Below the pieces are notes generated by a model. That model made no database searches. It was not told the DNA's origin and saw only the letters and a list, made by a program, of their open reading frames with translations. Both the position numbers and the translations under genes were made by a program. This document shows positions 48,236 to 60,869 of a stretch of DNA of 64,000 nt, piece after piece (the stretch's first letter is position 1; every line of letters begins with the position of its first letter). The stretch is from Pseudalkalibacillus salsuginis (GTDB lineage Bacteria > Bacillota > Bacilli > Bacillales > Fictibacillaceae): NCBI RefSeq assembly GCF_021646685.1, contig NZ_JAKJHW010000002.1, positions 744,001 through 808,000 on the forward strand, given 5' to 3'.

Positions 48236-49030
48236 CTAGTTAATTATGTTCTTCTTTTTTAGAGTCTCTAGTGTAATATTTTTCGCTTGGGTTCCGCTGC
48301 CATCAATGTTAACTGCATAAACCCATGTCGTATTTCCTGTCTCGACAAACCCGACAAACCATCCAAGACCAAAGTCTGACAGCCTTGTCCCTGTTTTCCC
48401 ATAGAGGGTATATTCATCCTGCTCATCCTGGATCATCATACGTTTAACGGTTTTTTGATGTCTTTCTTCAAAAGGAAGCTCTTCCTCCACCAGCTTTTCA
48501 ATAAAATCCGCTTGTTCCAAAGCTGAGATTTCCATGCTGCTGTCCAGCCAAAAAGAATCAATTCCACCGCTTATATCCTGGTTTCCATACTGTATAAGAT
48601 CAACATGACTCTGCATTTGTTCTTCACCAATATCACGTGCCATGTCTTGATAATACCAGATAACCGAATGTCTCATACCTGAAGCTAAAGTATGATCTCT
48701 ATTCCAATCTGCAAATTGCCTGGTGACCCCATCCCAGCGTTTTACTTCATATTCATCCCTGACCGCCAAGGTTTCCAATCCGATCAATGCATTCGGAACT
48801 TTAAAAGTGGATTCAGGTGTGAAGCTTTCCATGCTTCTCTCTTTATTGTATACATACACCTGATCGTTCTGGAGATTTTTCAATACCATTGTCCCTTCTT
48901 TATCATTAAAAAACTCCCCGATTTCCAAGTCCTTCGGCTTTTGGTGCTCGGCACCTGTTACTGTACCCAATCCCATAAATACAAACAAAGCAGAAAATAC
49001 AAGTAAGGCGGCAGTCCTCAACATCTTCAT
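48236..49030 (-). CDS. Class D beta-lactamase (OXA/BPU-like)
   Basis: A 264-residue exported serine enzyme with a signal peptide (MKMLRTAALLVFSALFVF...). All class D motifs are in order: Ser74-Thr-Phe-Lys77 (ESTFKVPNALIG), Ser122-Val-Ile124 (the S-x-V position, with Ile), Tyr148-Gly-Asn150, and Lys212-Thr-Gly214 (YGKTGTRL). Gram-positive class D enzymes of this type are known in bacilli and can hydrolyse penicillins weakly or strongly. Start ATG at 49030 with AAGGAGG; a longer frame would mask the signal. Activity and spectrum are not predictable here. Confidence 0.88.
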   Translation of the reverse strand: MKMLRTAALLVFSALFVFMGLGTVTGAEHQKPKDLEIGEFFNDKEGTMVLKNLQNDQVYVYNKERSMESFTPESTFKVPNALIGLETLAVRDEYEVKRWDGVTRQFADWNRDHTLASGMRHSVIWYYQDMARDIGEEQMQSHVDLIQYGNQDISGGIDSFWLDSSMEISALEQADFIEKLVEEELPFEERHQKTVKRMMIQDEQDEYTLYGKTGTRLSDFGLGWFVGFVETGNTTWVYAVNIDGSGTQAKNITLETLKKKNIIN

Positions 49031-49129
49031 TTTACATCCTCCTTCTTTTGATAGGTATTTCTCAATGATCAACAAGCTTGTGATATCATTAACTATACGT
49101 AACATGATTTATGTCTAAAAGGTTCATTT

Positions 49130-49157
49130 TTTCGATCTGTACCCATACAGATCGAAA
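49130..49157. promoter_or_regulatory. Perfect 12-bp palindrome before the MocR-type gene (probable operator)
   Basis: TTTCGATCTGTA-CCCA-TACAGATCGAAA ends directly against the GGGGAGG ribosome site of the regulator gene, between it and the divergent beta-lactamase gene. It could be an autoregulatory operator or an mRNA hairpin. Confidence 0.6.
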
Positions 49158-49171
49158 GGGGAGGATCCTGA

Positions 49172-50512
49172 TTGTCTACGAAATATGAACAAATCATAAA
49201 GGAAATCGAGGTCAGGATGGGGGATGGCCGCCTGAAACCCGGTTCACGACTTCCCTCGGTCCGTGCTTTTTCGAAAGAGCTTCAATGCAGTATCAATTCG
49301 GTCATCAAAGCCTATAATGAACTAGAAAAAGGACACAGGATTTACTCTGTCCCAAAAAGCGGTTATTTCCTTGTCGGCAGGAATAAGACAGATGGTGACA
49401 TCGTACAAGGATTGATCGATTTCTGCTCTGCAGGTCCTGACCCCAGCAAGATGCCTTATCGGGATTATCAACATTGCATGAATCAAGCGATCGACCTTTA
49501 CAAGGAGGAAATGTTTCATTACTCGGAGCCTTTAGGGTTGACCTCACTGCGCCACCAGCTTTCAAAACAGCTGCAGGATCTCCAGGTTTTTACTCCTCCA
49601 GAGAGGATTTGTATTGTTTCAGGATCACAACAAGCACTTGATCTCCTTGTTTCTCTTCCCTTTCCAAACGGAAAAGCTGAAATCTGTGTTGAACAGCCGA
49701 CACATTTCAGCTTTATCGAATCCTTATCCACTCGTGGTTTGAAAGCAATTGGAATTGAAATGACCAACAGCGGGATCGACTTGGACCATCTAGAGGAAAC
49801 CTTCAAGGAAGGAAACATCAAATTTTTTTACACCGTATCACGATTTCAGAATCCAACAGGTTACAGCTATTCGAACGAGGAAAAACGAAAAATCGTGGAG
49901 CTGGCCCAGAAATATGACGTATATATCATTGAAGACGATTATATGGGAGACCTGGACACACGGAGAAAGGCAGACCCGATGTTTGCCTATGATCCATCCG
50001 GCAGGATCATCTATACAAAAAGCTTCTCCAAAGTGCTGTTGCCAGGTCTAAGGTTAGGATTAGCGGTGTTGCCAGAGGCGCTGCTTGAAAGCTTTACCAA
50101 AGCCAAATTTGCGGCAGATGTCCATACCCCAGTCCTCACCCAGGGGGCCCTAGAAATTTATTTGCAGAGCGGGATGTTCATGTCGCATATCGATAAACTT
50201 AGAAAGCAATATAAGAAAAAGGGTACTATCCTTAAGCAGTCCTATCTTCAGTACCTTCCACCCGAAGCTGAATTTACAGGAGGAGACTCCGGTTTTTATT
50301 CAACGATTAAGGTGCCAGGACGATTAAAGGCAAGGCACCTTGTCGATCATTTGAAGAAAAAGAATGTCCTCGTCCAAGACGCGACGAATATGTATCTGCC
50401 AGACTATCGGAAGGAAAACCGGATCCGGCTGAGCGTATCGCAAGTACCCGATGCCAAAATAAAAATCGGTGTTGAAAAAATAGGAAAAGGTATTCGCGAG
50501 ATTTTTGTGTGA
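49172..50512 (+). CDS. MocR-type (GntR/aminotransferase) transcriptional regulator
   Basis: A 446-residue two-domain regulator. Residues 5-70 are a GntR winged helix (KPGSRLPSVRAFSKELQCSINSV). Residues 85-445 are aminotransferase-like with VEQPTHFSF, IIEDDYMGDL and the PLP lysine Lys287 in TKSFSKVLLPGLRLGL. TTG start at 49172 with GGGGAGG. It is only distantly like the MocR protein at 5641. It is divergent from the class D beta-lactamase gene, with a perfect palindrome between. Effector and target unknown. Confidence 0.87.
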   Translation: MSTKYEQIIKEIEVRMGDGRLKPGSRLPSVRAFSKELQCSINSVIKAYNELEKGHRIYSVPKSGYFLVGRNKTDGDIVQGLIDFCSAGPDPSKMPYRDYQHCMNQAIDLYKEEMFHYSEPLGLTSLRHQLSKQLQDLQVFTPPERICIVSGSQQALDLLVSLPFPNGKAEICVEQPTHFSFIESLSTRGLKAIGIEMTNSGIDLDHLEETFKEGNIKFFYTVSRFQNPTGYSYSNEEKRKIVELAQKYDVYIIEDDYMGDLDTRRKADPMFAYDPSGRIIYTKSFSKVLLPGLRLGLAVLPEALLESFTKAKFAADVHTPVLTQGALEIYLQSGMFMSHIDKLRKQYKKKGTILKQSYLQYLPPEAEFTGGDSGFYSTIKVPGRLKARHLVDHLKKKNVLVQDATNMYLPDYRKENRIRLSVSQVPDAKIKIGVEKIGKGIREIFV

Positions 50513-50623
50513 TAAGTTACATCAAAAGCGGTGGTCGAGATGTAGAGACAGAAACAGCGTACAAGTTGAAGTTTTTTGCTAAAAAAGACTGCCATCCAAT
50601 CGTTTTTCACTTTTATGATCGTT

Positions 50624-50650
50624 AAAATCGGTGAGAGACCGATTTTTTTC
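50624..50650 (+). terminator. Rho-independent terminator of the MocR-type gene
   Basis: AAAATCGGT-GAGAG-ACCGATTTT with further T, about 110 bases after the stop codon. Confidence 0.85.
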
Positions 50651-50677
50651 ATCTATTGGAACGTGCAGACCTCTTAA

Positions 50678-50830
50678 TTGCACCGTTTTCGGAGACGATT
50701 GCACCGTTTTCAAAAACAATTGCTCTGTTTTAAAATTAATTGCACTATTTCAAAAATGCATTGCATCATTTTCAAAAAATTGCACAGCTCCTTAGATAAT
50801 AGAATTACCGGGCAAGGAATTGCACGGCCC
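50678..50830. repeat. 21-bp phased array 3 (TTGCACxg units)
   Basis: TGCACCG-like units begin at 50679, 50700, 50721, 50741, 50762, 50781 and again at about 50821, so spacing is 21, 21, 20, 21, 19 and then 40. The unit is TTGCACCGTTTTCAAAAACAA, unrelated to the TGAACAG unit of arrays 1 and 2. Intergenic. Confidence 0.85.
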
Positions 50831-50874
50831 TGTACATTAATGAACCAGCATTTTGTACTTAAACCATAAAAGTA

Positions 50875-50990
50875 GGGCTGTCCCAAAACAATAGTGTCAG
50901 ACACCACCACACAACATTTTGTTTCAAAAACACACTTTTTCTCAAAATGTTGCTAGGGACGGTGAGAGTCAGACACTAATGGGACAGCCC
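50875..50990. repeat. Palindromic element R2
   Basis: GGGCTGTCCCA / TGGGACAGCCC ends. The interior is nearly identical to the copy at 28285 over about 115 bases. It lies between array 3 and the end of a minus-strand hydrolase gene, where it could stop transcription from either side. Confidence 0.85.
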
Positions 50991-50999
50991 CTTATCCTT

Positions 51000-51806
51000 T
51001 TATAATGATTGTACGAACTCTGTTACGACCTCGTTGAACACTTCAGCTTCCTCTAGGAATGGACAGTGACAGCTGTCTTCGAATACGACCAGATGGGAAT
51101 TTTCGATGTGTTCATTCAAAAACACACCTGCTTCGACAGGAATCAGTTTTTCCGCTCTCCCGAAACAGAGCAGGGTCGGCACCTTGATGTTTTTAAACTG
51201 ATCGCGATAATCGACCACCGTCTGATCGAACAGGATTGCACTTGCGACAGACTCCGGAAGCTTCGTAGTTTCCTCCAGCATCCAATTGAAATCTTTTGGA
51301 TCAAGCTCTTCCTTGAACATGAGCGGTATGAACTCGGTCAGGAAGCCTACCCGATTATTCTGCACTTCCCGCATCAGATGGATCAATGTCGGGAAATCGA
51401 AAGTACCACTCGGAAAATCTTCCCACTTGAAGTCGGAGGCCAATTCATCGACAATGACCGTTCCTTTGACATTGTCATCACCGAACTGCTGCAAATAATC
51501 CCATACGACGAATGCTCCCATCGACCAGCCGACAAGGACAACATTCTTCAGCTCCATTTTTTCAATGAAACTGTGCAGATCCCTCGCATAATTCGCCACA
51601 GTATGGCCATGGTGTACTTTCGCCGATTGACCGTGCCCCCGCATATCCAAAAGGATGATACGGTGATCCTTCCTGAAGTGCTCGGTTTGATTCTTGAAGA
51701 AGCGGCTGCTCATCCACACCCCATGGATGAATAGGACTGGTACCCCTTCCCCCACATCTTCATAGTACAATTCCACCTGATCTTCTTCTACACTGATATA
51801 TGGCAT
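51000..51806 (-). CDS. Alpha/beta-fold hydrolase at the end of the TOMM cluster
   Basis: A 268-residue hydrolase with HGVWMSS oxyanion region, nucleophile VGWSMGAF and catalytic His in SCHCPFLEE. The acid position after FGRAEKLIP is less clear (Glu rather than Asp). ATG at 51806 has GGGGG ahead. It follows the SagB-type dehydrogenase gene by 67 bases on the same strand, so it probably belongs to the peptide operon. It could trim or release the modified peptide or be a plain esterase; no direct evidence. Confidence 0.8.
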   Translation of the reverse strand: MPYISVEEDQVELYYEDVGEGVPVLFIHGVWMSSRFFKNQTEHFRKDHRIILLDMRGHGQSAKVHHGHTVANYARDLHSFIEKMELKNVVLVGWSMGAFVVWDYLQQFGDDNVKGTVIVDELASDFKWEDFPSGTFDFPTLIHLMREVQNNRVGFLTEFIPLMFKEELDPKDFNWMLEETTKLPESVASAILFDQTVVDYRDQFKNIKVPTLLCFGRAEKLIPVEAGVFLNEHIENSHLVVFEDSCHCPFLEEAEVFNEVVTEFVQSL

Positions 51807-51873
51807 CAAGTAACCCCCTTCATTTTAAATTCCATCATTCCATTCTATTAGTCCAAGCTGGTCAAATATGCGT

Positions 51874-53406
51874 TCAAATCAATATCCCTTTCAGCCAGGG
51901 GCGTGGTTGGTGGGTTCCAATCGGGATCTGGATAAGACTCGATTTTTTCCCTTCGAATCCATATAAAGTATCGGACATTGCCACATCGAATCCGAGTAAT
52001 GGATGTCCTCCCATATCGAGTGCAGAGGCTGCTAAGAGTAAGCGCTGAATGAGCATTCCGGCTTTCATCTGTTGGATACGGTAGCCTCGATAACCCAAGT
52101 CCTCTTTCAAATGATCTACTGAACCGACGATATGCAGGCAAATCGGTACTTGATAGAGGTTCACGTTATGGGCGGTCATCCCTGACTGCAAGCGAAGGCG
52201 TAAATCGCCCGACCGGATCAGCTCTAGAGAGTGAGCTGAGGAATTGTAGCGATATGCCCCATCCGGAATATCTTCAACATTGTAAAAACAGCCATATAGT
52301 TCGATCTTGTCGCCAGAATCACCCAAATCGTTCTGGTTGATAAAGTTTTTTGCGACCTCTTGCAGGAGGATTGATAATTCCCGTTGAGTCACCTTTTTCA
52401 TGGCAAAGTCCATATCAGGCGAGTAACGTTTCCGGCAAACGGTCGTAAAATCGTATTCTAGGCGGTCGTGTTGGGGCAGAAAGATGGTTTCCCCCTCTTC
52501 TTTTACAGTTTCCGTGGTTTTGTTCGGAGAAAAGCATCCTATCGAGTCGAACATCGCTGCTTCATTCATTTTCGTAATCATCGGATAATCCAGGATATTT
52601 TTCGAACGGATGAAATAGTCAGTTTCCAATTCCGGCATGAGATTGATCAGTCTATCAGCTGAAATGTCACCCTTTCCTCCCGACAACAACCCGAATTCCG
52701 GTTTATGGGATAGCGGGATGACAGCATAGATACTTTCCTCTTCCTCTTTCAATCCAAGCAGGTGGTTGACGGCACGGTCGAGAAACTGGAAAAACACATA
52801 GGATGAATACCCGAAGCGTTTCCCCAATTCAAGGATCTGGCCGATTAACGCACCAGCATCGAGCCCTTGTAATCGATAGGCGAAATGATTGTACTTGAAA
52901 AAGTTTTTCCAGAACATCGTCGTCACGAAAACCGCTCCGAAACAATTTTCAATGTTACAACGCCAACCGAGCGCTTGAGTAAGATAGCTGTCGAAACTGC
53001 CTTCCCTGAGCATTCCAAGCCTGTGATGGGCCGCATCATAATGATAGACGCCATCCGCCAACCCTTCTACTTTTAAATAGACGTACACTTCGTTCGGATA
53101 CAATCCTCCTCCCGAGGGAACGAAGCGTCGCAACTGTTGCAGAAGGTCTGGCGAGTCCATGTAGATCGACTCCGAGAATTGGGTAATTCCATAAGCGTGC
53201 CAGAGGAAAGTGCCGATCGTTTCGAGTGAAGCCATTGGTTTCCTGCCAGACGCTTTCAATGGAAGTTGGGTAGAAAGAGGGATAGTTGGCAGATCCCGAT
53301 AAAGTTTATACGGCAAGGGTGCATCCTCCCAATCGATCTCAAAATCCGGAGGTTTCACCTGATCGATGTCATAATGGAGATTATGGAGAAACTCATCAAG
53401 GTTCAC
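51874..53406 (-). CDS. sagB: SagB-type thiazole/oxazole dehydrogenase of the TOMM cluster
   Basis: A 510-residue FMN oxidoreductase with two nitroreductase-like halves. The first has RRFVPSGGGLYPNEVYVYL, YHYDAAHHRLG and an AGALIGQILELGKRFGY segment. The second repeats the pattern with YRYNSSAHSLELIRSG and QMKAGMLIQRLLLAASALDMGG. SagB enzymes oxidise thiazolines/oxazolines to thiazoles/oxazoles. GTG start at 53406 with AAAGGAGG. The YcaO gene ends 21 bases upstream. The large size agrees with the SagB-type enzymes of heterocycloanthracin-like loci. Confidence 0.86.
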   Translation of the reverse strand: MNLDEFLHNLHYDIDQVKPPDFEIDWEDAPLPYKLYRDLPTIPLSTQLPLKASGRKPMASLETIGTFLWHAYGITQFSESIYMDSPDLLQQLRRFVPSGGGLYPNEVYVYLKVEGLADGVYHYDAAHHRLGMLREGSFDSYLTQALGWRCNIENCFGAVFVTTMFWKNFFKYNHFAYRLQGLDAGALIGQILELGKRFGYSSYVFFQFLDRAVNHLLGLKEEEESIYAVIPLSHKPEFGLLSGGKGDISADRLINLMPELETDYFIRSKNILDYPMITKMNEAAMFDSIGCFSPNKTTETVKEEGETIFLPQHDRLEYDFTTVCRKRYSPDMDFAMKKVTQRELSILLQEVAKNFINQNDLGDSGDKIELYGCFYNVEDIPDGAYRYNSSAHSLELIRSGDLRLRLQSGMTAHNVNLYQVPICLHIVGSVDHLKEDLGYRGYRIQQMKAGMLIQRLLLAASALDMGGHPLLGFDVAMSDTLYGFEGKKSSLIQIPIGTHQPRPWLKGILI

Positions 53407-53427
53407 CCTTCACCCTCCTTTCGCTGG

Positions 53428-55374
53428 TCATGGGAATGGATGTGGATGTGGATTAAGCTGGTCGTACGTCAGCGGTCGATCATAATAGCCGAGCTCTGCT
53501 GGTACGGTTAGAACGCGTTTCAGCCCTTTCACCCGGGTAAGGTCATGACCGAAAGTCATCGGCAGCATGCCTGGGATCAATACTTTTACGCAATGCAATC
53601 CATTCCGCCTAATTTCAGCTGTCGTCTGATCCACAACGATCACATCAAGCCCCAAATTCTTGAATGCGTCTAGGACTTTCTTCAGGTCTTCTGTCAGATC
53701 ACGGTGATGGGTTTCCCAGTGGAAGGCTTCAGCAAATGACTGTACCTGGCGATCTTCATCGAGTAAAAACTGGAGCCTTCCTTCAGCCTCTTTCAATCCA
53801 TAAAGCATGCCGTGATCATCCATCGTATTAACTTGCGAAGAATCCTGATACAATTTCACATAGTTACTTTTATGGGACTCGAATTTATCTTCAAGCGACA
53901 TCACCATTCCTGCCAGTTCGTAAACCGCACTCTTCACCGCTCTTATCGGATCAAGGTGGGCACCCGCTGCACAGAGGAGGTTCATCCCTTTTTGCTTCCG
54001 GTTTTTGACCAGCGCCCAAACACTCGGGATCCCATGCTCCATCGTGGCATTATACAGGTGAAAGTCGTACCCGCCGATTTCCTTCATCCGTCCGATCATC
54101 AAGTGCAATTCCTTGTCGTCAGCAGAATAAGGGTCCAGACGTGGAAGATTCAGCTGGGCATACCAGGTCATCAGGAAGGCATCACGCTCGATAACTTCCA
54201 TGATCCCATGAAAGACCGCTTCCTCAAGACTACCACCGAGCGCGCACCCATTCGATGTTTCATAGACGAACCCATCCCCGCATCCCAAACTGTAATAGGC
54301 AAGCCGTTCAGGAACAAGGATCTGGCGGTCTTGTAAAAACGAATGGCCCCATACCCAGTTCATTTTTCGATCAGGATTGAACTTCTGGTAAGGGAAATCT
54401 GGCTTGTCATAATGTTCATCCTCATGAACCCCGACCTCCAACGGATCCAACGCATGGTGTCCAAGATGCCGATAACTGTCAAAAACCACGGTCCTCTTCC
54501 CGCGGGCACCGATTCCACAGGATCGTTCCAATGCTTCTAAAATCCCTGTCATTTCACTCAGCTTATAGGAATACGTCCTCCCACCTGTCCCCTCACTTCT
54601 GCTGAAAAGCGGGAGGTTCACGATGACATCGGCGAACACCGTCACAGAATCATACATCTTATGATTCGTTATCCCTGTCCGGGTATTGAGGTAATCGTGT
54701 TCCAAAACCTTCTCCAGATCATCCATCGACCTTGTTCGGAAACTGCCCGGACTCACTTTCGGACTAGGCTTCAGTGTAATACGTGCACTTTGTTCAGCAT
54801 CCTCCGGGAGATTGCTGCAAACCGGACACACGGCTTCTGGCAAGATAAAGCGCCATGATCCCTCCAATGTTTTCATGTTCATCAAATAAATGTGATCGGC
54901 AGATTGTGGGTCGTCTCCCTCGAGCGCCTTTTTCGCTTCCCCTGCAATCAGGTAAGCAAGCTGTAAGAGGCCTGTATTAGAGGACCAGGGATCTGGGGAG
55001 AGACTGTCTTCGTGTGCCATCCTTTGTTCCCTCAACCCCCACATCTCCGGTGTCTCACGACCAGCAACCAATAATCTGGTGTCAGCACAATAAGAGCATC
55101 CTTCCTTATCGGGTTGGACGAGTGGGCCGATCACACCTTCCCCGAATGAAAGGAACCCTCTCAACCATGGAATACGCAGATGCCGGAACACATTTTCTGC
55201 CTGCTGATGTACAGAGGGGACCCATGTATCGTGGAGAACGAGGACCAATTCGGTCATTTCCGGTATATCTTCTTCGATTGAGGCACGACGTATGACTTTA
55301 AAATCTATATCCAGCCTTTCACAGACTTTGTCAACGAGCATGCCGTATCCAACTACCAGCACTATGTCCCTCAC
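53428..55374 (-). CDS. Fused E1-like/YcaO cyclodehydratase of the TOMM cluster
   Basis: A 648-residue protein. The N-terminal cyclodehydratase (E1-like) region carries the zinc tetrathiolate pairs Cys93/Cys96 (CSYC) and Cys183/Cys186 (CPVC). The YcaO domain begins near 225 and shows the ATP/Mg motif SNGCALGGSLEEAVFHGIME VIERDAF around 374-400. It ends with the proline-rich tail NPHPHPFP (the PxPxP end needed for activity in azoline-forming YcaO). It uses ATP to cyclise Cys (and possibly Ser/Thr) of the precursor to azolines. GTG start at 55374 overlaps the upstream stop. Confidence 0.9.
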   Translation of the reverse strand: MRDIVLVVGYGMLVDKVCERLDIDFKVIRRASIEEDIPEMTELVLVLHDTWVPSVHQQAENVFRHLRIPWLRGFLSFGEGVIGPLVQPDKEGCSYCADTRLLVAGRETPEMWGLREQRMAHEDSLSPDPWSSNTGLLQLAYLIAGEAKKALEGDDPQSADHIYLMNMKTLEGSWRFILPEAVCPVCSNLPEDAEQSARITLKPSPKVSPGSFRTRSMDDLEKVLEHDYLNTRTGITNHKMYDSVTVFADVIVNLPLFSRSEGTGGRTYSYKLSEMTGILEALERSCGIGARGKRTVVFDSYRHLGHHALDPLEVGVHEDEHYDKPDFPYQKFNPDRKMNWVWGHSFLQDRQILVPERLAYYSLGCGDGFVYETSNGCALGGSLEEAVFHGIMEVIERDAFLMTWYAQLNLPRLDPYSADDKELHLMIGRMKEIGGYDFHLYNATMEHGIPSVWALVKNRKQKGMNLLCAAGAHLDPIRAVKSAVYELAGMVMSLEDKFESHKSNYVKLYQDSSQVNTMDDHGMLYGLKEAEGRLQFLLDEDRQVQSFAEAFHWETHHRDLTEDLKKVLDAFKNLGLDVIVVDQTTAEIRRNGLHCVKVLIPGMLPMTFGHDLTRVKGLKRVLTVPAELGYYDRPLTYDQLNPHPHPFP

Positions 55375-57275
55375 AGTAATGGGGCCTCCTTCCTTAGCAT
55401 GACACCGAGTAAGACCGCCTGTTCTTTTTTCAGCAATGGTTCCATCGGTAACGCAAATACATTGAGCGTTCTCCTGCTTTTACTTAATACCTCCTTTGCA
55501 TCCTGAAGACTTTCATCCACATCTGACTGCACAACCTCAAACTCTGCCAGATTCTTTTCATTCACAGCGATGGAAGGATGTTCAATCACCAACGTATGGA
55601 TATTGGTTTGTTTGTTCTGCCCTTTCATGACTGCATGTTTAAGTACATTGCGGAGGGCAGTCGTACGATCTAGACCGACACTTCCGTACCAACGGTCTCT
55701 TACCTCAATCCATATGACTGGAAAACCAGCCACTTCTCTTCCAGCAAAGATTCCCGGTTCTTTTCCCATCGTTTTCAAGGACTGTAAAAGAAAGCTGCAA
55801 TGGTCATCCTTGATCGCCTTTACATGGACCGGGATAACCGGGAACTGATGATTCTCTGCTTGGGTCCGCAGCTCCTTAAGAAGACATTTTTGCAGGCCAC
55901 GGTACACACCCTCCGAATTCGTTTCTCCTGCTCCAATTCCGATCAATGTGTCAGAATCACTCGGCTGCTGTAATTCCTCCAATAACCTTTCGCCATAGGT
56001 CTCTAAACCGATCAATCCTGCCTCCCGCCGGGCCTCTTCATGAGTGAGGCCGCCGCAAATTTCGGCTGGTAAAAGTTCAGCCGGGCCGTCTGAGCGGGGA
56101 TCAATTACCTGGATTTCACATTGTGACAACGGGATTTGATTTAAATCACCTTCCTCCCAGCGATGGAAGACCCCTGAAACATCAGAAGTCATTTGGGTGA
56201 GAGCCATGAACAAATTACCCGGTTTTCCTTTCGACCCTTCCAATAACTGTTCTTCCTCCAACCATTTAACAGGTTCAAGCTTACGCGGTTTCGGTATAAA
56301 AGTATGCCACTTTCCTTCCAGAGTATAAGGATCCAGCAGGTAGAATTGCAGGCGGTCCCTACCAGCAACATCTGTCAGGCTTTTGAACATTTCAAAGGAA
56401 CATAGATTGGTGAGCATCGCTCCAGCAGTAGTGGAATAGGACTCTGATACCCGTTCTTTTTCAAATACGGTTTTGTGGATGCTTTGCCATACAGACGACC
56501 AACATCCTTCTGAACCAGGTTGGATGACTGGACCAGCAACACCAAGTCCCTCTATAAATACAGCGGGGATGAACATCTTTCTCCCTTTTTGACAAGCGGA
56601 TTCAACTGTACGCAGTTCCTCCAATTCGCCCTGTTGGGAGACGTACAATATACAATCAAAGGGCTCGATGACATCGTTCCAGGAGTTCCCGCTCTCTGCC
56701 TGAGAGATGATTTGGATCGCTACGTCGGGATCTGTTTTCCGTGCATGCGTTACCAGTTCGGACAATCGCTTTCGATTCGTCTGCATCGTATCAGTGATCA
56801 AAAGGTGGAATTTCGGCAACCCGGACTCAAGCAATGACGAAACCAATGAATGGAAGATTGGTCCGGAACCGATTGCAAGAACTTTTGCTTTCCGGTATTC
56901 CTGGAAACGATAAGCCCCTGAGCCTCTGAAACTGTTCAGAAACTCGATTTGATGAGCATACTTTTTCAAGATTTCCTCTTCCAATTGATGAGGGCTGTCT
57001 TGACTCAAATCCCGTAAGAATCCATTCTTGTACAAGGTTTCTGTAATCTCAAAAACCCGATCCCTGTATGGCCCGGGCAATCCTTCCGTCATCTGTTCCA
57101 ATGTAAAATCACCGTTGTACATCGGCAGCAATTTTTCTACCCACTGATCGATTGACTTACCTTCCATCTGAAACGAACCCGCGTTGTTCCTGAAATACAC
57201 ACTGCCTTTTGGATCAGGCAGAAAGAAAGTATCCCTGTTCATTTTCATACGCATCGAAGGGCTTAATCTCATCAT
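55371..57275 (-). CDS. Thiazole-containing bacteriocin maturation protein (leader-binding/E1-like)
   Basis: A 634-residue protein. Residues 10-95 look like a winged-helix RRE leader-recognition domain (YFRNNAGSFQMEGKSIDQWV, then MYNGDFTLEQM and TLYKNGFLRD). Residues 125-300 are ThiF/E1-like (VLAIGSGPIFHSLVSSLLES) without CxxC zinc sites. The C-terminal part is family-specific. This is the layout of the putative maturation proteins that partner YcaO in heterocycloanthracin-like clusters; it should bind the leader and present the core to the cyclodehydratase. ATG at 57275 with AAAGGAGGAG. It is the first enzyme gene after the precursor. Confidence 0.82.
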   Translation of the reverse strand: MMRLSPSMRMKMNRDTFFLPDPKGSVYFRNNAGSFQMEGKSIDQWVEKLLPMYNGDFTLEQMTEGLPGPYRDRVFEITETLYKNGFLRDLSQDSPHQLEEEILKKYAHQIEFLNSFRGSGAYRFQEYRKAKVLAIGSGPIFHSLVSSLLESGLPKFHLLITDTMQTNRKRLSELVTHARKTDPDVAIQIISQAESGNSWNDVIEPFDCILYVSQQGELEELRTVESACQKGRKMFIPAVFIEGLGVAGPVIQPGSEGCWSSVWQSIHKTVFEKERVSESYSTTAGAMLTNLCSFEMFKSLTDVAGRDRLQFYLLDPYTLEGKWHTFIPKPRKLEPVKWLEEEQLLEGSKGKPGNLFMALTQMTSDVSGVFHRWEEGDLNQIPLSQCEIQVIDPRSDGPAELLPAEICGGLTHEEARREAGLIGLETYGERLLEELQQPSDSDTLIGIGAGETNSEGVYRGLQKCLLKELRTQAENHQFPVIPVHVKAIKDDHCSFLLQSLKTMGKEPGIFAGREVAGFPVIWIEVRDRWYGSVGLDRTTALRNVLKHAVMKGQNKQTNIHTLVIEHPSIAVNEKNLAEFEVVQSDVDESLQDAKEVLSKSRRTLNVFALPMEPLLKKEQAVLLGVMLRKEAPLL

Positions 57276-57357
57276 TCCGCTCCTCCTTTACCCGAGAGCT
57301 GTTCTGAATGCTTCATATGAGTTTATGTAGGTCAATTTGTCTTATATGCTTGATAGA

Positions 57358-57394
57358 CGAAAAGAACCCCAGCGTTGAAACTGGGATTCTTCTT
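57358..57394 (-). terminator. Terminator or attenuator between precursor and maturation genes
   Basis: Minus strand AAGAATCCCAG / CTGGGGTTCTTTTC, 17 bases after the precursor stop. Partial readthrough would give more precursor mRNA than enzyme mRNA, as is common in peptide loci. Confidence 0.7.
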
Positions 57395-57410
57395 AAACGT
57401 TGACCAATTA

Positions 57411-57695
57411 TCAGCCGCCGCACGGACCACCGCATCTGCCACCGCATCTGCCACCACATCTTCCACCACAATGGCCGAAACATCTGCTGCACGGGCCGAA
57501 GCATCTTCCGCATGGACCGAAACACCTGCCACACGGACCAAAGCAAGAACCAAAGCATGGCCCGAAACAAGGGCCTACGAATACACACAAGCGTGACTCA
57601 TCTTCGTACTCTTCATAATAATCACTCGGGACAAAGTCATTCGCATTATAATCGCCAATGTCCAGCCCTTGAAGATCTTGTCGGAACTCTTTCAT
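57411..57695 (-). CDS. TOMM precursor peptide, heterocycloanthracin/sonorensin type
   Basis: A 94-residue precursor. The leader (1-36) reads MKEFRQDLQGLDIGDYNAND and on to an acidic Tyr-rich end YYEEYEDESRL; the MxxFxQxLQ-L-x-DY-A start resembles known family leaders. The core (37-94) has 15 Cys, first as CFGP/CFGS units, then CGR-CFGP alternation, finally four CGGR/CGGP units; only two Ser and no Thr. ATG at 57695 has GGGGGAAAGG ahead. It lies at the head of the TOMM operon and is the predicted substrate of the YcaO/SagB enzymes, giving many thiazoles. No transporter or immunity gene is adjacent. Confidence 0.88.
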   Translation of the reverse strand: MKEFRQDLQGLDIGDYNANDFVPSDYYEEYEDESRLCVFVGPCFGPCFGSCFGPCGRCFGPCGRCFGPCSRCFGHCGGRCGGRCGGRCGGPCGG

Positions 57696-57899
57696 TGCCT
57701 TTCCCCCTATCCTTCATTACTGGAGTTGAGTGTAAAATAAAAACAAGAGATTGAGCTTTTACTCTCTTCAACACAGTATGATGGAGGGGTGGGCGTTGTT
57801 ACTGATCAACCTGTCTCTATTTAATAAAGATTTTCAGGAAGATAAGGACAATTGATGGCTCTACGATTAGATTTTGGACTTCCGACCTAAAGCCCTTAT

Positions 57900-58083
57900 A
57901 AAAGCTCCAACACCCAGATCAGCCACGAAGGTCACTGGAAGTCCGACGGGGAGGCTCGAACCAAACAAAGTTCGGTTCTGCGTGGGTAAACATTTCGACC
58001 TAAATCAATGTGTCGACCGCCGCAGGAGGACTGAAGTGATCCGAGTGGTTGGGCGTTGGAGCTAGATATTTCTTCACCGCAAG
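57900..58083 (+). repeat. Dispersed structured repeat R1, long form (copy E)
   Basis: Outer pair around CCAGATCAGCCAC / GTGGTTGGGCG, inner TCACTGGAAGTCC / GGACTGAAGTGA and both hairpin arms, nearly identical to copy C. It lies upstream of the TOMM precursor, on the other side of its promoter region. The start (AAAGCTCCAACACC) is the most diverged part. Confidence 0.85.
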
Positions 58084-58282
58084 AAAATTTTTTATACTCT
58101 CTTATCCTTTAAGAAAAATCCAAGGAGAAAATGAAAATCTCCAAGGGTTTATCGTTCTTATGTTTTTTCTGAAACATGCGGTCCTATCCTCAGGATTTAC
58201 AGGACAATTTACCCTCATTTGTGACAAAAAGAGTGGACATCTATACCGCTATTTTGGTAAAAGGAGGCTGATTTTTAGTTTC

Positions 58283-58366
58283 CCCGATAAATGTACAGTT
58301 AACGTCGTTAAAAGTAGTTTTTCCGTCGTTAAACTCCTCAATTTCGTCGTTAAACTCTGAATTTCA
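58283..58366. repeat. 21-bp phased array 4 (GTCGTTAAA units)
   Basis: GTCGTTAAA begins at 58304, 58325 and 58346 (exact 21-bp steps), with weaker units at about 58283 and 58367. The stretch 58084-58433 otherwise holds no gene with a ribosome site. Confidence 0.75.
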
Positions 58367-58433
58367 TCCAATAAGGTATCTGGTGTCCTCTATTTTTTGT
58401 AAAGCATGGGGTTTTGAGCCACCATTAACTTGC

Positions 58434-59609
58434 TTATTGTGTTACAGCGTTTGCTGCGTTTACCCGTCCATTTTGGAAAAGTATGCATGTACCAGTCACC
58501 TCAACTGCTGTTTCCTCAAGGGCTGTACGGATTTGTTCGGCGCTTTTACCCTGGGCTGCAAGCAAACCTGCTACACCTGCTACGAGGGGTGAAGCCATCG
58601 ATGTACCTGAATAGGTGGCATACCCACCGTTTGGAATCGTTGAATGGATGTCGACACCAGGAGCTGCGATATCCACCCATAATCCGTAGTTGGAGAAGTA
58701 AGCAATCGCATCATTTTCATCAGTCGCTGCTACCGCTATGGCGTTTTCGTAATATGCCGGATAGCTGGGAAGCGGTGTACTTTCGTTCCCAGCAGCAGCC
58801 ACTACGACAGAGCCTTGTTCCCATGCATAGTTGACGGCTGCTTCCAACGTCTTGGATCCGATTTTTCCGCCAAGGCTCAGGTTGATCACTTGAGCACCCT
58901 GATCGGCAGCATAGCGGATACCTTGTGCGACGTCATCCATCGTACCGCTGCCATCCGCATCCAGCACACGTACTGGGAGAATAGAGGCTTTAGGTGCCAT
59001 TCCGGCAATCCCCTCACCATTATCCGTATTCGCTGCTGCAATCCCGGCAACATGAGTGCCATGTTCATTCTCATCGATCGCATCGTTATCATCATCCACG
59101 AAATCATAGCCTTGCAGTACTTTTCCGTCCAAATCTGGATGATTGTAGTCAACTCCAGTATCTATGACGGCAATCTTAACCGATGGATCGCTCAGGGTAA
59201 CATCCCAGGCTTCTTCTGCACCGACTTTTTGTGGGGCATATTGGAGCGAATGATAGGCAGGATCGTCAGGTATATAGCTTGCATGGAGTTCGACGTTTGG
59301 TTCAGCAAACGTTACAGCATCAAGAGCTTCGAGTGCCTCGACTGCTTCTGAGACATTGCCATTTACTTTTACAACGAAAAACTCATCGGTAGCATCAACG
59401 ATTTCACCATCAATTCCAGAGATGACTTTCTTTGCGACTGAAGTGATACTTGAGTCTTTCGTATGGACGATAATCTCTTGTGGTGCTGACTGCTCAGTAT
59501 TAGAGGTAAAAGAAGGTGCTTTTTCACCAGAACCTTCAGCAGACACTGGTATTGCCATGGATGCGACAAGGGATATGGATGCCGCAAAAGCCACGAAACG
59601 CTTTAACAT
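58434..59609 (-). CDS. Secreted subtilisin-like serine protease (S8)
   Basis: A 391-residue pre-pro-protease. Signal peptide 1-24 (ending VSA), an I9-type propeptide to about 112, then a catalytic domain with Asp150 (AVIDTGVDYNHPDL), His183 (NEHGTHVAG), oxyanion Asn275 (AAAGNES) and Ser337 (SGTSMASP). It acts outside the cell on proteins. The end TGTCILFQNGRVNAANAV keeps the usual subtilisin pattern except for one Cys. ATG at 59609 follows GGGAG. Transcribed alone, next to the TOMM cluster but separated from its precursor by repeats. Confidence 0.93.
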   Translation of the reverse strand: MLKRFVAFAASISLVASMAIPVSAEGSGEKAPSFTSNTEQSAPQEIIVHTKDSSITSVAKKVISGIDGEIVDATDEFFVVKVNGNVSEAVEALEALDAVTFAEPNVELHASYIPDDPAYHSLQYAPQKVGAEEAWDVTLSDPSVKIAVIDTGVDYNHPDLDGKVLQGYDFVDDDNDAIDENEHGTHVAGIAAANTDNGEGIAGMAPKASILPVRVLDADGSGTMDDVAQGIRYAADQGAQVINLSLGGKIGSKTLEAAVNYAWEQGSVVVAAAGNESTPLPSYPAYYENAIAVAATDENDAIAYFSNYGLWVDIAAPGVDIHSTIPNGGYATYSGTSMASPLVAGVAGLLAAQGKSAEQIRTALEETAVEVTGTCILFQNGRVNAANAVTQ

Positions 59610-59927
59610 AGAATCACTCCCATATGTATTGACCTATAAAGTTGTAAGGTATAGCGAGTGGATTCTACAGAAATCTGCCTATTCCTTTAAAGTTATTCTG
59701 AAATAATGATATCCTCCTACATGAAGAAATCAACATCTTAATCTTTGAGTAGAAATGACTATTCCCACCCACGAGTAAACCGTCATTTTCTGACTACAAA
59801 ACAGGGAGTATATTCTTTTTCTGAAATTAAAAGGAGAATGTGTTGATTCGTACCCCGAAACATTTCTTTTGACTACCTGTTTTGATAGGAGTAACATACA
59901 CTTATCATTCGAACAGACAGGAAAGAG
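59610..59927. other. Divergent promoter gap between the protease and the transporter genes
   Basis: A 318-base gap. It must hold both promoters, but no confident -35/-10 pair was found. No hairpin terminator, repeat or small gene was seen. Confidence 0.45.
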
Positions 59928-60869
59928 ATGAGGGCTTTGTCTAAACCAGCAACCTATATCCTATTACTCTTGCTTATGATGATCTGGGGATTCAATGTCA
60001 TAGCCATCAAACTGGTCGTCGAGTACTTTGAACCGGTCACAATAACCGCTTTCCGTATATTGACGGCTGGGATCGTGGTCCTGATTTTTTTAGCTTCCAA
60101 AAAGGAATTCCGCAAAATGACACGTCAGCAGCTTGTCTATGTTACGATCGGCTCTTTGACAGGGATTACTGGTCATCACTACTTTCTCTCGATGGGCCTG
60201 ACGATGACAACAGCTTCGAATACGGGTCTTATCATCGCCCTGGTTCCGTTGATGACTTCTCTCCTCGCGATCGTGTTCCTTGGTGATCGGTTGACGCTCT
60301 TAAGGTTCATCGGTATATTCCTCGGCTTTATCGGGGTTTCTTTTATCGTATTGAATGGTGCAGGAGAACTTTCAAGCATCTCTCGAGGGGATTTTTATAT
60401 TTTCCTTTGTGTGCTCGCTCAGGCTGTCAGTTTCATCTATATCAAAAAAGCGACGGAAACGATGGATGCGAGACTCATCACATTTTGGATGCAAATCATA
60501 GGGGCCGCCTTCTTGTTCCTTATCAGCCTGAAAGTTGAACCTCAAGGTCTTGAAAGCCTGACGACAGGTAAGCCTTGGATCTGGGCTGTGTTCGCTTCAT
60601 CTGCCATCTTAGCGACTGGAATCGGCCATATGTTTTATAATCGTGCCATCCATCAGCTAGGTGCAGGTGAAACGGCTATCTTCATCAATCTTACACCGTT
60701 CTTCTCGTTGACTGGATCGTATCTATTTCTAGACGAAACGATTGCGGCCGCCCAGCTCTTCGGATTCATATTCATCGTTTCAGGAGTTGTTTTGGGGACA
60801 GGTGTGTTAGAACATAGAAACTATTATCAAGTGCGGAAAATAAAAGAAAAACAAAGTGACCTTTCATGA
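59928..60869 (+). CDS. EamA/DMT-family transporter
   Basis: A 313-residue membrane protein with ten helices in two EamA repeats. The first starts LLLLMMIWGFNVIAIKLVVE and the second near residue 150 (GDFYIFLCVLAQAVSFIYIK), ending LFLDETIAAAQLFGFIFIVSG. Members export amino acids or other metabolites; substrate unknown. ATG at 59928 has AGGAAAG ahead. Confidence 0.88.
   Translation: MRALSKPATYILLLLLMMIWGFNVIAIKLVVEYFEPVTITAFRILTAGIVVLIFLASKKEFRKMTRQQLVYVTIGSLTGITGHHYFLSMGLTMTTASNTGLIIALVPLMTSLLAIVFLGDRLTLLRFIGIFLGFIGVSFIVLNGAGELSSISRGDFYIFLCVLAQAVSFIYIKKATETMDARLITFWMQIIGAAFLFLISLKVEPQGLESLTTGKPWIWAVFASSAILATGIGHMFYNRAIHQLGAGETAIFINLTPFFSLTGSYLFLDETIAAAQLFGFIFIVSGVVLGTGVLEHRNYYQVRKIKEKQSDLS

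Follow-up and report, generated by a model that had tools for sequence, protein, structure and literature searches.

A heterocycloanthracin operon of Pseudalkalibacillus salsuginis with a CFGP-patterned precursor core and a sigma-K-like promoter element

What is made from a short precursor whose core carries 15 cysteines, and at which stage of the cell's life is it made? Both questions are raised by a gene cluster of Pseudalkalibacillus salsuginis (GCF_021646685.1, contig NZ_JAKJHW010000002.1), located in the 64-kb stretch of DNA analysed here, which as a whole is called the window. All four cluster genes are open and lie on the same strand, the precursor first, followed by F, C/D and SagB. 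Judged from its sequence, the cluster is an operon of the heterocycloanthracin (HCA) type, in the order putative promoter, precursor, hairpin, F, C/D, SagB, and thus belongs to a family that is already known. We consider it probable that the operon as a whole yields a thiazole peptide and that a sigma-K promoter, helped by input of GerE type, drives it; expression would then fall late in the mother cell. The core variant is new, as is a testable reading of the time at which the family is produced; the chemistry itself belongs to a known type. The features referred to below are:

57772..57802 (-): sigma-K-like promoter; GTAAC as -35 (57802-57798), a 17-nt spacer after AC, CATACTGTG as -10 (57780-57772)
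57790..57794 (-): GCCCA, GerE-like half site (RCCYA) within the promoter spacer
57703-57708 (-): AGGGGG, resembling a ribosome-binding site; retained in two relatives, one neighbouring base differing in G007
57588..57695 (-): precursor leader, 36 residues, acidic; TIGR03601 match over residues 1-82
57411..57587 (-): precursor core, 58 residues with 15 Cys, plus stop codon
57360..57393 (-): terminator- or attenuator-like hairpin, 14-bp stem and 6-nt loop, between precursor and F gene
55371..57275 (-): F protein with a leader-binding RRE and a ThiF-like domain; TIGR03693
53428..55374 (-): fused E1-like (C) and YcaO (D) cyclodehydratase, C-terminus NPHPHPFP; TIGR03604 and TIGR03882
51874..53406 (-): SagB-type flavin mononucleotide dehydrogenase, two nitroreductase-like halves; TIGR03605 in two stretches

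The preliminary description of this DNA had named a heterocycloanthracin/sonorensin-type TOMM locus, and correctly so, since all four products score above curated cut-offs. The precursor reaches 42.4 bits with TIGR03601, the heterocycloanthracin/sonorensin model (cut-off 35; 40.9 bits in the genome search), the F protein 673.6 bits with TIGR03693 (ocin-ThiF-like; cut-off 561.9), C/D 422.7 bits with TIGR03604 (cut-off 219.25) and 139.9 with TIGR03882 (cut-off 36.9), and SagB 213 bits with TIGR03605 (cut-off 78.4). Gene order and these matches likewise bear out its view of a precursor heading the genes for a leader-binding protein, an E1-YcaO protein and SagB. Its span, 51000..57695, holds for the four-gene cluster and has to be trimmed at one end, as 51000-51809 encodes a separate alpha/beta hydrolase. 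This hydrolase was ruled out as a cluster gene: it is a chromosomal neighbour present in 8/8 genus genomes, including G002, which has no F match, and G006, where the cluster lies elsewhere. In the C/D protein of 648 residues the TIGR03882 match starts at residue 68 and TIGR03604 spans residues 265-648; from this length and these matches the enzyme appears to be short and devoid of a leader-binding RRE of its own, the RRE match being found in F instead, residues 13-88 of which align with the solved PbtF chain (structure 8t19; E 3e-7). The YcaO domain aligns with TruD, MusD and LynD, for which structures are solved, and C/D has SxxxExxER, SNG...EExxERD and a Pro-rich C-terminal tail in common with TruD. 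SagB aligns with the putative nitroreductase 3eo7, with CyaGox and with McbC, its FFKYNHFAYR lying against an FWKY stretch of CyaGox; YcaO and McbC active-site motifs served as background for these comparisons. F, C/D and SagB follow the precursor on the same strand in 75 of the 77 cases with at least 5 kb of downstream sequence, and a published survey names F, C/D and B as the only genes common to all clusters compared (excerpt of PMC4603692).

The comparison rests on 107 distinct precursor sequences, the window's included, which an extractor took from precursor-family searches at E up to 0.001 (matches in 6/8 genomes of the genus, 17/34 of the family and 94/397 of the order), from a search of the family genomes with the F protein (28/34 at E up to 1e-20) and from one search of named genomes. 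Both the order search (397 genomes) and the class search used further below (299) are samples of larger groups. The extractor missed hits in L008, L012, L016-L018, L020, L034, L035, L039, L044, L046, L091, L113, L147 and L159, among others, and sometimes chose an internal start codon, so that distances to the start are approximate.

When would such an operon be read? On comparing the window with two relatives, conserved blocks are seen 5' of the ribosome-binding-site-like sequence, and the element common to the upstream regions of the precursors consists of TRGGY, ATCAGTAACAA, RCCYA, CATANNNT(G/A) and TTG..GAGAGT, in that order. A strict pattern, AC-N16/17-CATANNNT[AG], was counted within 300 nt upstream. 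Hereby, 93 of the 107 precursors carry it, compared to 30/2140 first-order Markov controls and 11/619 upstream regions of other open reading frames of at least 150 residues in the same loci; within 250 nt of F genes it occurs in 4/154. The spacer measures 17 nt in 88/93, and at least one match was obtained in each of 19 families (family tables compiled by hand from the search outputs) and in the set of named loci. The window's copy, ACAACGCCCACCCCTCCATCATACTGTG, extends over 57799-57772(-), starting at 57799(-) and ending in G. On both strands of the whole window only one further strict match exists (27238+), which lies inside an open reading frame and was set aside as probably due to chance.

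For dpaA and yabG, dependence on sigma-K is known. As positive control served dpaA, which was picked before its upstream region was seen and then extended to 30 genomes selected from those with an HCA match; the strict pattern precedes it in 30/30, including the window's own genome, with 25 copies ending in TG and five in TA. The published sigma-K consensus of B. subtilis is KCACM / GCATANNNTA (excerpt of PMC3416734), the gap between the two blocks is given as 14-16 nt (excerpt of PMC517825), and the bclA promoter of B. thuringiensis reads CAC-N16-CATATGTTA (excerpt of PMC4750369). With a -35 AC, a gap of 16-17 nt and a -10 of the form CATANNNTA, in which TG is tolerated, as the definition of a sigma-K site, the window sequence falls within this class. 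Known parallels on the promoter side are sigma-K genes such as dpaA, bclA, bclB and cotB: the form AC-N16/17-CATANNNT(A/G) is that of dpaA and bclA, and the long untranslated leaders that appear to precede HCA precursors are comparable with those of bclA and bclB, whose start sites lie 120 and 150 nt 5' of the genes (excerpt of PMC4750369). Unlike the HCA operon, these genes encode spore parts or dipicolinate synthesis and not modified peptides. The promoter form suggests that the peptide is made during the building of the spore rather than during growth.

A second regulator may act on the same region. The consensus half site of GerE is TRGGY. This motif stands 5' of the -35 in 59 of the 93 aligned promoters (54 sites at offset -37; 104/1860 Markov controls), and RCCYA stands in the spacer of 55/93 (94/1860 controls).

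Several observations weigh against sigma-K and GerE control and have to be set beside these counts. The upstream region of yabG has the strict pattern in only 15/29 cases, family f30, which belongs to the window's own order, shows it before 2/8 precursors, and no strict copy precedes F where F does not directly follow the precursor (G003, G005, G207, G298, G394). In the aligned set of 93, the AC, CATA and T(A/G) columns are fixed by the way the set was selected. The window itself has one RCCYA box, and its upstream box is imperfect (CAGGT). Outside the order, a held-out search of the class matched 52/299 genomes (E up to 1e-4), from which 26 new precursors were taken, one of them, L270, with a stop soon after its start. 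The strict pattern precedes 5/26 of these, compared to 16/1040 controls (f58 4/4, f65 1/1, all others 0/21). A looser form, AAC-N15-19-TCATA, devised after looking at the sequences, is found in 14/26 versus 28/1040 controls; the strict count includes L263 at its corrected offset and the looser count predates that correction. By eye, the architecture can be made out in drifted form in these precursors, for instance as TGGGC ... GGAAC ... ACCCA ... TTCATAAATCTA in f68. Hence, the strict sigma-K pattern is not universal in the class, and our confidence in sigma-K control, as judged from these sequence comparisons, extends to the window's order and not beyond it.

Two side observations belong to these other orders. 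Most of the nine f68 precursors (L251, L253, L256, L257, L261, L262, L265, L267, L269) have in common an upstream block, TGGGC...GGAAC...ACCCA...TTCATAAATCTAGAGTAG, near the start codon. A plasmid of Paenibacillus larvae (L250, NZ_CP019653.1) carries TAGGT ... GTAACAA ... CATAAAGTG before an HCA-type precursor, together with a partial F match (residues 1-288) adjoining an IS256-family transposase gene. Plasmid or phage spread of the cluster was rejected, as partial F matches were obtained in 3/72,556 plasmid records and in no phage record.

How special is the core of this precursor? Its 58 residues comprise 15 Cys, 19 Gly, 7 Phe, 6 Pro, 6 Arg and 2 Ser and no Thr, arranged as CVFVGP/CFGP/CFGS/CFGP/CGR/CFGP/CGR/CFGP/CSR/CFGH/CGGR x3/CGGP/CGG. 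As the preliminary description had proposed, the precursor was put to a family search, which it passed with TIGR03601, and core patterns were compared, here on the 107 precursors; part of what had been called unusual turns out to be common. Cys counts range from 9 to 28, at most two Ser plus Thr are present in 80/107 cores, and units with Phe stand on average ahead of those without in 81/90 cores having at least three of each; by these measures the window's core is typical of the family in Cys number, low Ser/Thr content and Phe-first order. Its spacing and its prolines set it apart. Pro precedes 6/15 Cys in the window; among the 1545 Cys of the remaining 106 precursors it precedes 24, of which the window's two sisters account for 14. 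Intervals of four residues between Cys make up 10/14 in the window versus 213/1439 elsewhere. Cys-Xaa-Xaa intervals, a trait by which the B. cereus members are described and on which the curated model does not depend, make up 3/14 versus 1052/1439. Another member, L031, has four-residue intervals throughout (15/15). CFGP itself occurs in 3/107 precursors, and the C/D proteins belonging to them (L001, the window's row in the tree, L022 and L023) group together in a single clade (SH-aLRT 99), the sister group being three genus members whose cores are mostly of the three-residue kind. From these comparisons the core is a local, lineage-specific variant, recognisable by its CFGP units, its Pro-Cys pairs and its four-residue intervals; the word unusual holds for these traits and not for Cys count or block order. 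The proposal of a candidate new natural product stands in so far as family members mostly have their own cores and CFGP is confined to three of them; the block pattern on which it was based is family-typical. We have not met this core in the sources at hand, in which no search by core sequence was made.

Other precursors of the family vary in further directions. G007 (L128, 11618, minus strand; likewise L023) has an additional precursor, placed between its CFGP precursor and F; this one comprises 171 residues with 28 Cys in CGGQ/CGGP repeats and is preceded by an AAC-N17-CATATTATA of its own. The nearest relative, G004, has a second HCA-type cluster (L133, contig C81) with F and C/D and no SagB match within 20 kb, the precursor of which is rich in His and Cys (CHHCHGQSHHCHTHC...), its reading containing an unknown stretch. 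L141 (G025, 9447) combines a long CSCSCS run with subsequent CGGR repeats and 25 Cys; CS runs occur also in f68, a family of another order. No F, C/D or SagB follows closely 3' of the precursor in L112 (G207) and L157 (G298), where F lies about 10 kb and 7 kb away, respectively, on the same strand.

Is the variant under selection? Over the 90 codons that can be aligned with the precursor of G004, 54 of which belong to the core, seven differences are synonymous and none alters an amino acid; had the changes arisen without regard to coding, the chance that all seven are synonymous would be about 2e-5. The ratio of nonsynonymous to synonymous substitution rates (dN/dS) of the enzymes is 0.16-0.25 in the same comparison. 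The two cores differ by one four-residue unit and by nine terminal residues that repeat existing units. Given the lack of amino-acid changes and the unit-sized insertions and deletions, the product is therefore constrained within its units and variable in their number. Behind the precursor, the region 57340-57410 folds at -23.8 kcal/mol (z -5.7), and a hairpin of -15 kcal/mol or lower is found in the 140 nt past the stop codon of 98/107 precursors versus 15/321 dinucleotide shuffles. The hairpin fits an attenuator or terminator that would raise the precursor above the enzymes.

Taken together, the following course of events can be proposed. In the mother cell, during the final hours of sporulation, sigma-K would direct transcription of the precursor, with GerE-type input, and the hairpin would let the precursor outnumber the enzymes. 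F would bind the acidic leader via its RRE and deliver the precursor to the truncated E1-YcaO protein, which, using ATP, would form rings between Cys side chains and the carbonyls before them, with a loss of 18 Da each; SagB would then oxidise the thiazolines to thiazoles, giving a loss of 20 Da in all. Ring formation is predicted from family biochemistry, an HCA cyclodehydratase having been reconstituted in vitro in F-dependent form (excerpt of PMC4603692). Cleavage of the leader probably takes place close to a conserved Arg where leader and core meet, an Arg being close to the core start in 104/107 precursors. The product would thus be a peptide, linear and cationic, that carries as many as 15 thiazoles and whose backbone is of an uncommon Pro-thiazole type. 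The operon has no exporter gene, and in none of the eight window genes analysed between 48236 and 59609 was a transporter identified. The peptide would be either deposited on the spore or freed at lysis of the mother cell; it may serve as spore armour, as an antimicrobial borne by the spore or as one released with the lysate. Against such a fate, an EamA-type gene nearby might offer an export route.

Which other readings could account for the locus? A structural or protective role at the spore surface, with a Cys-rich, coat-like peptide hardened by thiazoles and no antimicrobial function, is a serious possibility that we nevertheless hold to be the less likely one. It would agree with the sigma-K/GerE-type element, which is also used for exosporium genes (excerpt of PMC4750369), and with C/D, F and B alone being common to all surveyed clusters; the cores, in contrast, diverge fast between species and by unit-sized insertions and deletions, as expected of weapons, and sonorensin is reported to kill bacteria (excerpt of PMC4544038). 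Conversely, the peptide could be a bacteriocin secreted in vegetative or stationary phase, the upstream element being some other conserved promoter or regulator site that resembles sigma-K. The family name, the reports of sonorensin as a bacteriocin isolated from its producer (in the same excerpt) and the absence of the strict form in 21/26 precursors of other orders speak for this and against sporulation control. We regard it as unlikely, as the element has the -35, the spacing and the -10 of sigma-K and recurs in the same form before dpaA. Neither of the promoters tried in its place fits: a sigma-E promoter was rejected for want of an excess of the corresponding pattern (2/107 versus 44/2140 Markov controls), and a sigma-70 promoter was rejected as the scan gave no minus-strand site in 57696-58500 and a total for the region near chance (14 versus 11.4).

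A locus in decay or silent can hardly be reconciled with the data: the cluster is indeed missing in some relatives, F being present in 28/34 family genomes (E up to 1e-20), but in the window the four genes are open, and both the enzymes' dN/dS and the unchanged amino acids of the precursor point to maintenance. It is also rather improbable that the system includes the adjacent subtilase, encoded at 58434-59609(-) and bearing an apparent signal peptide, and that this enzyme removes the leader. Orthologues of at least 67% identity lie on the precursor side in six genus members having the cluster at this place, and the best matches in G002 and G006 reach only 53-56%; the gene was, however, not found at the cut used in other loci, many of which offer only 1.5-5 kb on that side, and in G001, G003 and G005 it lies about 5-6 kb and other genes away from the precursor.

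Seen against described systems, the operon is nearest to the HCA of the B. cereus group (Haft 2009, PMC2674419), with which it shares the leader family, a Cys-rich repetitive core, insertions and deletions of whole units, and F with fused C/D and SagB. In that group the core repeats a Cys-Xaa-Xaa unit and the precursor is encoded far away from its enzymes, whereas in the window the precursor heads the operon and four-residue intervals and Pro-Cys pairs are frequent. Sonorensin of B. sonorensis MT93 (excerpt of PMC4544038) is one of the named peptides that this family and its curated model cover; it differs in being reported as antimicrobial, and the comparison made is at family level. F-protein-dependent thiopeptide clusters (excerpt of PMC4603692; PbtF, 8t19) have the RRE-ThiF leader-binding protein and truncated E1-YcaO in common with the window, in which no macrocycle-forming gene is present among the genes examined (48236-59609).

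The surroundings may be summarised briefly. The EamA-type transporter gene, 59928-60869(+), scores 150.8 bits (cut-off 28.2), lies beyond the subtilase on the opposite strand and is also present in G004 and G007. A class D beta-lactamase-like gene, 48236-49105(-), scores 269.5 bits (cut-off 250, general class D model) and stands beside the cluster in G004 too. No known RNA family was detected in 50500-59700 at E up to 0.5. Pfam matches of the precursor to male-specific sperm protein were dismissed, being below cut-off and of low complexity. When 20-kb stretches of G002 and G006 were compared as possible empty sites, the hydrolase alone of the window genes from 40000 on was matched, and no clean empty site was obtained.

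For the order as a whole, we would give an even chance to the view that its HCAs, catalogued as secreted bacteriocins, are terminal mother-cell products under sigma-K and GerE, hardened by thiazoles and fast-evolving, which serve the spore as weapon or coating or leave together with it at lysis, and that the same promoter architecture persists in drifted form in other orders of Bacilli. Among the papers listed by the literature searches, whose coverage leaves out most subscription journals, none was seen to tie heterocycloanthracin to sigma-K, and in the sources at hand, partly excerpts, we saw no established HCA structure and no role beyond the sonorensin reports. In conclusion, the Pro-Cys core of the CFGP clade provides a natural test of what HCA cyclodehydratases accept, and the putative late-sporulation promoter says when and where to look, namely in sporulating cultures, spores and lysates. 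If the reading is true, a modified-peptide pathway would be run by the terminal mother-cell programme, and the question of its function would be turned into direct experiments.

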